A stretch of 64,000 nt of DNA from positions 56,768 to 120,767 of the forward strand of contig JAQYAV010000103.1 in assembly GCA_029338675.1 (NCBI GenBank). Direction: 5' to 3'. Shown in pieces: positions 30,508-33,519 of this stretch. The notes under the pieces are model-generated. The model had not been told where the DNA came from. It did no database searches and was given only the letters and a program-made list of their open reading frames with translations. The stretch comes from Lachnospiraceae bacterium (GTDB taxonomy: Bacteria > Bacillota > Clostridia > Lachnospirales > Lachnospiraceae). Position 1 is the stretch's first letter, and each line of letters starts with the position of its first letter. The position numbers were made by a program, and so were the translations under genes.

Positions 30508-31290
30508 ATGAAACTTATTTTTTTTGATATTGATGGAACGCTTATTGATGAAAATAATAATCAGATGTCTGATAGTACTAAAGAAGCGATTAATAAAGCA
30601 CGTGAAAATGGGCATATATGCATTGTTAACACTGGAAGAAGCTACAAGCTTGTAGGAGATTGGTTGCCAAAATTAGTAGAATTTGATGGATATTTATGTG
30701 GATGTGGAACGCACATAATATATAATAACAAAACTTTGTTGCATCAGACATTTACAGCCGAAGTTGCGAATCAAATAATACAAGGACTTGAAAAATACAA
30801 AATCGATGCAGTATTAGAGGGCAGCGATAATAATTTTCATAATAATATAGATAAAATACATACTAAGCTTTTTAAGGACTTTATGCTTACCTTCAGTAAT
30901 ATGAATTATGGTTTATATGAAGACGCAATTGGACGCTTTGATAAGTTTTATTGTTATGCCCCTGAAAAATGGCAAATTGAAGGATTTACGAAAGAATTTA
31001 GCCATATACTTGATTTCATTGACCGTGAAAAGGGCTTTTACGAAATAGCACCTAAGGGTTTTTCTAAAGCAAGTGCAATTAAATATATTGCAAATTATCT
31101 AAATATTCCTATGGAAGAAACAGTAGCAATAGGAGATAGCAACAACGATCTTCAAATGTTAAAATGTGCGCACATTGCAATTGCTATGGGCAATGGAAAT
31201 GATAATGTTAAGGGCATGGCAGACTATGTTACAACAAATGTTAGTGAGGATGGAATAAAAAACGCATTAATATGGTTAAATGTAATTTAA
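30508..31290 (+). CDS. Cof-type HAD family hydrolase
   Basis: LIFFDIDGTLIDENNN, AIGDSNNDLQMLKCAHIAIAMGNG. Confidence 0.92.
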   Translation: MKLIFFDIDGTLIDENNNQMSDSTKEAINKARENGHICIVNTGRSYKLVGDWLPKLVEFDGYLCGCGTHIIYNNKTLLHQTFTAEVANQIIQGLEKYKIDAVLEGSDNNFHNNIDKIHTKLFKDFMLTFSNMNYGLYEDAIGRFDKFYCYAPEKWQIEGFTKEFSHILDFIDREKGFYEIAPKGFSKASAIKYIANYLNIPMEETVAIGDSNNDLQMLKCAHIAIAMGNGNDNVKGMADYVTTNVSEDGIKNALIWLNVI

Positions 31291-31309
31291 TTATTTAAGC
31301 TCTTAATGA

Positions 31310-32359
31310 CTATTTTTCCCGTAATTGAACTTTATTACGAGCAGCACGTTTGCGTTGATCATCTAAGTCTGCATAATGTTTTCTTGTAGTATTAACATCT
31401 GAGTGACCTAATACATCTGCAACAAGATAAATATCAGAAGTTTCCTGATACAAAGCTGTACCATAAGTACTACGAAGCTTATGGGGTGTAATATGCTTAA
31501 GTGGAACAGCTGAAACAGAGTACTTTTTAACAAGATTTTCAATACTACGTACACCTAAGCGTTTTCGTTGAGAAGATAGGAAAAATGCCTTTTCGTGACC
31601 TTCAACTGGAATAATCTTTTTACGTTCTTCATAATATGCTTTTAGATAAGCAGAAGCCTCATCACTAAAATAAACGATAGCTTCCTTACCACCTTTTCTT
31701 GTAACTCTAATACACATATTTTCGAAGTCAATATCCTTAATATCAAGGCCAACACACTCGGATATACGAATACCGGTACTTAACATAAGAGTTAAAAGAG
31801 CTAAATCGCGATTTTTAGCCTTCTCATGGTGAAGTAATTGATGTTTAGTCAAATTAGAGCCATATTCAACGTTATCAAGGAAATTAGCAACCTCAGCCTC
31901 ATCCATTCGTGTAATTGGCTTATCATGTAATTTAGGCATATCTACCTTACTAATAGGATTTTGGCTTACATACTCATGTTTATACAAATATTTGTAAAAT
32001 ACGCTTAATGAGGCTAATTTACGCTTAATTGTAGCCTTATTATTAGTATATACACGTCCATTCTTACGATACATCTGCAAATAGTCTAAATAATCCTCAA
32101 TAAGCTCATGATCAATTGAAGATAGTACATCTAATGAAATATCTTTTAAAGAGTTAAAATTTGCATCTGTATATGAATCAAAAACATATTCATAAAAGCA
32201 TTTAATATCTCTAGCATAAACTAGCCTAGATCTGGAACTATGAGTTTGCTGTATACCTCTAAAAAACTTCTTAACATAATCAGGAAGTTCGCTACAAATT
32301 TTACGGACAAGTTCAATATTGTTTAATTCATTTTGTTGATGATAATTAAATTCCTGCAT
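31310..32359 (-). CDS. Tyrosine recombinase, XerS/XerC-like
   Basis: Core ATGIRISECVGLD, HITPHKLRSTYGT, LGHSDVNTTRKHYA; start moved to ATG 32359 after GGAGG. Confidence 0.9.
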   Translation of the reverse strand: MQEFNYHQQNELNNIELVRKICSELPDYVKKFFRGIQQTHSSRSRLVYARDIKCFYEYVFDSYTDANFNSLKDISLDVLSSIDHELIEDYLDYLQMYRKNGRVYTNNKATIKRKLASLSVFYKYLYKHEYVSQNPISKVDMPKLHDKPITRMDEAEVANFLDNVEYGSNLTKHQLLHHEKAKNRDLALLTLMLSTGIRISECVGLDIKDIDFENMCIRVTRKGGKEAIVYFSDEASAYLKAYYEERKKIIPVEGHEKAFFLSSQRKRLGVRSIENLVKKYSVSAVPLKHITPHKLRSTYGTALYQETSDIYLVADVLGHSDVNTTRKHYADLDDQRKRAARNKVQLREK

Positions 32360-32395
32360 AAAAACCTCCAAAGTAGTAGTGTATTACCTAAATCT

Positions 32396-32429
32396 AATTA
32401 TTCGCAAAACCATAGTTTTATGAATAATT
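32396..32429. promoter_or_regulatory. Candidate dif-like Xer recombination site
   Basis: AATTATTCGCAAAAC-CATA-GTTTTATGAATAATT: 15-nt arms matching 13/15, 4-nt centre; in the 5' leader of the Xer-like gene at the strand switch. Confidence 0.6.
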
Positions 32430-32440
32430 TGTATAGGAAT

Positions 32441-32469
32441 AGTATACTGCAAAAGCCTATATAAATCAA
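32441..32469 (-). promoter_or_regulatory. Putative sigma-A promoter of the Xer-like gene
   Basis: On - strand TTGATT (32464-32469), 17 nt, TATACT (32441-32446). Confidence 0.6.
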
Positions 32470-32511
32470 GGGTTTATATAGCTTTGAGTACTTTTTTAAA
32501 AAATTTGTGCA

Positions 32512-32562
32512 TAAAATAAATGCAATAAATAACTAAAATAATTATCTATTGCATTTATTTTA
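32512..32562 (-). terminator. Perfect 16-bp inverted repeat downstream of rluD (terminator-like, AT-rich)
   Basis: TAAAATAAATGCAATA (32512-32527), 19-nt loop, TATTGCATTTATTTTA (32547-32562). Confidence 0.55.
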
Positions 32563-32595: not shown

Positions 32596-33519
32596 TTATA
32601 TACTATATTTTTTTATTATTTTCTCGAAATACTCAGGCAATTCGGATTTGAATTCCATATATTCACCAGTTATTGGATGATTAAATCCAAGTACACCTGC
32701 ATGTAAAACCTGACCATTTGAATTTACTGGACAATTCTTTGGACCGTACACTTCATCACCTAATAATGGATGATTTATACTAGCCATATGAACTCTAATT
32801 TGATGAGTACGTCCAGTTTCCAGTTTACATTCAATTAACGACAAATTATTTGATAACTCTTTAATTTGCTTATAATGAGTAATTGCTTTACGACCATTTA
32901 TATCAATGGCCATTTTCTTTCTATCTGTTTTATGCCTTGCAATTGGTTTATCAATTGTTCCTTCATTTTCTTTGAAATGATTATATACAATTGCTGTATA
33001 AATACGATTTATATCATGAATTTTAAATTTGTCTGACATAACACGGTGTGCTGCGTCGTTTTTACAAACAACAAGCAAACCTGTTGTATTCATATCAATT
33101 CTATGAACTATACCTGGTCTTTGGATACCATTAATTGATGATAACGAATCTTTACAATGATACATAAGAGCATTTACTAATGTGCCGCTAAGGTGTCCTA
33201 GTGCAGGATGCACAACCATACCTTTAGGCTTATTTACAACAATTATATCATTATCCTCATAACGAATGTCTAAAGGAATATTTTCTGGTAGTATTTCTAA
33301 AACTTCAGGCTCTGGAATACAAACATTAATTACATCATTTAATCGTAACTTATAGTTTGACTTAGCGTTTTTTTCATTTACCCTTATGTCTCCATTTTCA
33401 ATTAATTTTTGAATATACGCTCTAGACATATCTGGTAACTTATCAGACAAAAATTTATCAATTCTAAGCCCTGTAAATTCACTATATTCATCATTAATAA
33501 TTATATCAAATTCATCCAT
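32596..33519 (-). CDS. rluD: RluA-family pseudouridine synthase (RluD-like)
   Basis: S4 domain N-term; GIVHRIDMNTTGLLVVCKND; LETGRTHQIRVHMASI. Confidence 0.92.
   Translation of the reverse strand: MDEFDIIINDEYSEFTGLRIDKFLSDKLPDMSRAYIQKLIENGDIRVNEKNAKSNYKLRLNDVINVCIPEPEVLEILPENIPLDIRYEDNDIIVVNKPKGMVVHPALGHLSGTLVNALMYHCKDSLSSINGIQRPGIVHRIDMNTTGLLVVCKNDAAHRVMSDKFKIHDINRIYTAIVYNHFKENEGTIDKPIARHKTDRKKMAIDINGRKAITHYKQIKELSNNLSLIECKLETGRTHQIRVHMASINHPLLGDEVYGPKNCPVNSNGQVLHAGVLGFNHPITGEYMEFKSELPEYFEKIIKKYSI

Follow-up and report, generated by a model that had tools for sequence, protein, structure and literature searches.

The replication terminus of this Lachnospiraceae bacterium very probably carries a single-recombinase module for chromosome-dimer resolution, self-contained in that one XerS-like gene (xer) has its dif site directly upstream, and the most likely role of this module is the separation of fused sister chromosomes. 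It is also probable, in our opinion, that the module represents a distinct and old class of single-recombinase Xer/dif systems, which would be the standard means of dimer resolution in Lachnospiraceae and many other Clostridia, would take its direction from two arm positions, and would be widely exploited by inoviruses and also by large phages of gut and rumen that carry the host dif sequence.

The DNA analysed (the window) is a stretch of 64,000 nucleotides corresponding to positions 56768-120767, the right end, of the 120767 bp contig G000:C103. This contig belongs to a draft genome of 2.85 Mb in 171 contigs, whose own skew was followed over 120 kb. An ORF count in the window gave 27 non-overlapping plus-strand genes of at least 80 aa ending at or before 31290 and 29 minus-strand genes from 31310 rightward, placing the convergence point of the leading-strand genes in the 19 bp from 31291 to 31309. 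The first-pass annotation had proposed a full strand switch with a 19-bp convergent gap, 29 genes on each side of it and an XerS/XerC-like recombinase as the first minus-strand gene; the gap, the right-hand count and the Xer type of the recombinase were confirmed, and the left-hand count became 27. The GC skew flipped at the gap from about +0.22 (+0.21 to +0.25) on the left to about -0.20 (-0.18 to -0.24) on the right, with its zero crossing in the window at 30-34 kb. Over the whole contig the cumulative GC skew reached its maximum at window position 31587 and the AT skew at 32541, and the maximum likelihood estimate of the GC-skew change point was 31584 (2-lnL interval 31254-31654), about 0.8 kb from the dif-like site described below. 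Automatic gene calling over the same 120.8 kb showed 96 of 100 genes directed towards the terminus. The last gene of the left arm (30508-31290, plus strand) encodes a HAD-type hydrolase (PF08282, 2e-55) and the gene that follows xer on the right arm (32596-33519, minus strand) an RNA pseudouridine synthase with an S4 domain (PF00849 and PF01479); both lie outside the module. Rfam and tRNA scans of the window gave no matches.

The draft genome shows the switch on its own contig, and the geometry of origin and terminus was judged from complete relatives. In 10 complete chromosomes of the same family, 45.5-49.9% of the genome separates the orthologous xer gene from dnaA, and the separation is 47-48% in four complete genomes that belong to other families of the class; in G178, an assembly in two pieces, the distance was 33.5%. 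When the skew was sampled at 21 places of the complete relative G185, just two switches were found, one at dnaA and the other at the xer/site locus, the skew being positive on the way from dnaA to the xer locus and negative both ahead of dnaA and past that locus. In some relatives the switch, followed in 20-kb stretches, was several kb away from the site. The position of xer opposite dnaA in 14 complete chromosomes, together with the G185 skew, thus supported the earlier proposal that the 31.3-32.4 kb locus is the replication terminus. The same two observations make it very unlikely that the right half of the window is simply a local inversion, the outcome that had been named beforehand as speaking against a terminus. 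The broader reading, in which the switch is an inversion or a mobile element in the middle of a replichore and xer is a phage integrase, appears extremely improbable to us: it could appeal to the fact that Xer-like genes also serve as integrases and to two phage-labelled records encoding proteins about 50% identical, but those records are unverified scaffolds carrying the site and xer together. It is contradicted as well by skew and gene orientation that stay consistent over 88 kb on one side of the switch and 32 kb on the other, and by an ortholog that is antipodal to dnaA and nearly universal in the family.

The xer gene (31310-32371, minus strand) encodes a protein of 353 aa if translated from the TTG at 32371 or of 349 aa from the ATG at 32359. 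The ATG, which has GGAGG directly upstream, is the more likely start because the TTG falls within TTGGAGGTTTTTATG. The product belongs to the phage-integrase family (PF00589) and has the R-K-H-R-H-Y set of Xer-type tyrosine recombinases (R202, K226, H297, R300, H323 and Y333 in the 353-aa numbering), invariant in 24 orthologs. XerS was the best NCBIfam model (NF003462, 221 bits), followed by XerC (169) and XerD (156), and the score stayed below the XerS equivalog cut-off of 267 bits, whereas streptococcal-type and other true XerS members score 379-557 bits. The best XerS E-value among the 24 orthologs was 3.8e-66, about the same score as that of the window protein, and no ortholog seems to reach the cut-off. 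A tree of 39 proteins separated a clostridial clade (100/99), an XerS clade (99/95) and an XerC/D clade (100/100) and, having no outgroup, does not fix the branching order of the three. Judged by its sequence, the recombinase forms a clade of its own, close to streptococcal XerS. As a side observation, proteins exceeding the XerS cut-off also occur elsewhere in the phylum, in families whose genomes are larger (G601, G670, G799, G846 and G941; L287-L291), and neither difSL nor the clostridial site was present upstream of those of their genes that were checked.

Orthologs of xer were found in 275 of 299 genomes of the family (238 of the 246 good ones, and all 25 of high quality), usually as a single copy, and in 61 of 293 genomes drawn from the class. 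XerD exceeded its cut-off in only 8 of the 25 high-quality relatives, so that the XerS-like protein is the only Xer common enough to serve dimer resolution throughout the family. Classification of the tyrosine recombinases of the genome under study gave five, namely XerD, the XerS-like protein, an integrase-like protein and two others, and no XerC. Its lone XerD passes the curated cut-off, which would favour a reading in which the recombination site is real and the enzyme acting on it is XerD or a phage integrase, the XerS-like gene having some other role. We regard this reading as very improbable, since the XerS-like gene is nearly universal and linked to the site, the site does not have the canonical dif sequence, and sites exist in genomes without matches at the XerC/XerD level; thus G185 and G178 have perfect sites and yet no XerC/D-like match above integrase level. 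In a few genomes of otherwise good quality the xer gene was interrupted by one in-frame stop (TAG, TAA or TGA), as at G265:C1:1089543-1090592 and G127:C6:129814-130866 and also in G193, G217 and G443. There was no dif-like site near the G265 gene, and these cases may reflect pseudogenes, sequencing errors or replacement.

The candidate dif site, a near-palindrome of 34 bp with 14-bp arms around a 6-bp centre (inverted repeat I4), is located at 32396-32429, just upstream of xer; its minus-strand letters are AATTATTCATAAAACTATGGTTTTGCGAATAATT, and its motif can be written as AACTATTCGYNAAA-N6-TTTNRCGAATAGTT. Comparison of upstream regions detected the same element ahead of xer orthologs in about a dozen genomes, and the window site was the only match in its genome at two mismatches or fewer. 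With the same tolerance 155 of 299 family genomes had the motif, almost all of them in a single copy, and about 20 had the reversed control; about half of the family genomes had no match at two mismatches. When tables of sites and genes were compared by hand, the site was upstream of xer in 52 of the 53 genomes with both on one contig, G159 being the exception. It also occurs in other families of the class, where the centre is often ACAAG. Contigs G260:C78 and G182:C47 both begin at the site, which would be expected of a site that is sometimes repeated. The procedure was checked on two genomes scoring 530-557 bits for XerS, and in this positive control it found difSL, taken here as TTTCCGAAAAACTATAATTTTCTTGAAA, at 76-79 bp upstream of xerS (0 and 1 mismatches). 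The difSL halves used agree with a published review (PMC5357621). Single, conserved, placed at the terminus and used by integrating elements, the site is likely to be dif; it went unnoticed in the first-pass annotation and, added to the Xer gene at the terminus, makes up a complete candidate dimer-resolution module.

Other sequences were considered for the role of dif. Matches to the canonical XerCD dif (11-6-11) in the terminus contig were no better than those in shuffled sequence. A palindrome at 32457-32481 (9-bp arms and a 7-nt gap) and a longer inverted repeat at 32512-32562 were rejected because, unlike 32396-32429, neither is conserved in relatives. In one sub-clade of the family a different conserved element, CTATACGACAAAtaccgaTTTTTCCAAAAGAT, occupied the dif position about 100-190 bp upstream of xer (L050, L052, L054, L055, L059 and L060); it is less symmetric than the main site and contains a difSL-like TTTTTCC stretch.

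A palindrome in this position could also regulate xer transcription, as an operator or leader element, and have no part in recombination. It lies no more than about 60 bp from the start codon and just downstream of a TATACT belonging to a possible xer promoter (TTGATT-17-TATACT, 32441-32469, minus strand), identified by a consensus scan in which promoter-like sites were no more frequent than in shuffled sequence; if the predicted promoter holds, the site would sit at or just past the transcription start. Against this reading, the distance between site and xer in relatives ranged from tens of bp to 37 kb (G166), with other genes in between, the motif was recovered from viral stretches of which most of those examined had no xer relative, and an inovirus is inserted at the site. 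An RNA hairpin or terminator was likewise rejected, given that the arms at positions 10/25 and 11/24 were no more complementary than expected by chance and that no T-run comes after them. These results contradict an operator as the sole function of the palindrome, an explanation that we judge very unlikely, and autoregulation of xer may be a second role of the recombination site. In many relatives (G149, G253, G282 and others) a PP-loop gene (TtcA/TilS-like, PF01171) lies between the dif-like site and xer, apparently forming one operon with it.

Among IMG/VR contigs the exact motif was detected in at least 120 viral stretches, which are pieces of contigs, against one for the reversed motif. 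The small isolate-derived contigs were inovirus prophages that encode a pI/Zot-type ATPase and a rolling-circle replication protein, and in one case a coat protein. An inovirus of G149 lies between the site on the xer side and a repeat of the centre and right arm of the site, 5.75 kb apart, and in G253 the genes flanking this inovirus meet at a single site; this one pair of occupied and empty loci shows that inoviruses insert at the site. L147 has two inovirus-like units in tandem, separated by the site. The sites of L127, L147, L151, L155 and L163 share one 6-bp centre, which fits recombination because strand exchange requires a common centre. In Enterocloster inoviruses, flanking direct repeats have been noted and the recombinase was not named (PMC10061712); these phages may use the site found here, which offers an explanation for their repeats. 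An intact dif-like site was also seen in large phage contigs (L112, L115, L129 and L135, which come from viral contigs 107-126 kb long) and in many rumen-type viral contigs, where it lies away from the contig ends and mostly without a Xer gene in the stretches examined. For these phages the host recombinase may serve in integration or in the resolution of multimers.

Outside the centre the two arms match except mainly at two positions, one arm reading TTCG-C-N-AAA (C arm) and the other TTCG-T-N-AAA (T arm). At the first of these positions 47 of 58 chromosomal sites paired C with T, and the arms differed there in 55 of the 58 against 33.7 for random re-pairing, a count in which kinship among genomes is ignored. 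The bias was weak in viral copies (43 of 70, P ~0.06). We infer that this polarity is a direction signal for a single recombinase.

The following mechanism is proposed. An odd number of crossovers would fuse the sister chromosomes; two protomers of the recombinase would bind the two arms of each site, FtsK at the septum would pair the two dif copies, and the recombinase would swap strands over the 6-bp centre to give two monomers. The difference at two arm positions would give the site its direction and set the strand that is cut first. Filamentous phages would carry or rebuild the site and probably enter the chromosome through the host recombinase. From position, conservation and linkage, and by analogy with XerS, XerH and XerL, we infer binding and recombination of the candidate site by the XerS-like protein, activation of this protein by FtsK, and selection of the module for dimer resolution.

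The closest known system is XerS/difSL of streptococci and lactococci (PMC5357621), which also has one recombinase of about 350 aa, its gene beside the site at the terminus and a dif whose inverted arms enclose a non-palindromic centre, and which provides the best-scoring curated model here. The clostridial protein differs in scoring under the cut-off for XerS and in forming a clade apart, and its site, TTCGYNAAA-N6-TTTNRCGAA, departs from difSL in both sequence and spacing. In the control search difSL was found only by streptococcal-type xerS, and neither motif lay beside the other protein; it is thus not the cognate difSL but a different site that adjoins the gene. The XerCD/dif system of E. 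coli and B. subtilis shares a terminus dif with two unequal arms and a 6-bp centre, FtsK and exploitation by inoviruses. In contrast to its two paralogues and canonical dif, there is here one recombinase whose gene is linked to the site, no canonical dif above background was found in the contig, and the genome has XerD and no XerC. XerL/dif of Legionellales and XerH/difH of Helicobacter and Campylobacter likewise rely on one recombinase and are lineage-specific; an element inserted at dif led to the discovery of XerL, whose site has long inverted arms too, and XerH genes are near their site (PMC9765430, PMC5357621). XerL was compared by description, and dif and xerL of L. pneumophila are more than 400 kb apart, unlike the linked gene and site reported here; XerH is a weak sequence match to the window protein (1.7e-12).

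Published reviews and surveys assign XerS to streptococci and lactococci and also mention Lactobacillus helveticus (PMC5357621, PMC3025954). Our literature search, which subscription papers and preprints lay outside, found no paper with both XerS and Lachnospiraceae and no described dif site or dimer-resolution recombinase for Lachnospiraceae; among papers combining XerS with Clostridi-, titles and abstracts apparently do not describe the system. The single-recombinase Xer/dif module of Clostridia is therefore undescribed in the literature searched, and priority is not certain. The Lachnospiraceae rank with the most common bacteria of gut and rumen. With the site defined, growth-rate estimates from read depth gain an exact marker of the terminus, and chromosomal insertions a natural location; a system whose arms are simple and whose polarity is clear also becomes available for comparison with XerS, XerH, XerL and XerCD.

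Finally, the earlier suggestion that GAAGAAG is oriented along the two arms was examined for a KOPS role and did not survive correction for codon use. Sense occurrences in the window genes numbered 32 against 20.1 +/- 2.9 after synonymous shuffling, and this excess was not kept over the full contig (54 against 44.3 expected), while the count in G185 was below expectation; GAGAAGGG was absent from contig G000:C103. This contig also encodes an FtsK with a gamma domain, at a distance of about 80 kb from the terminus (window positions -47985 to -47800, G000:C103:8782-8967).
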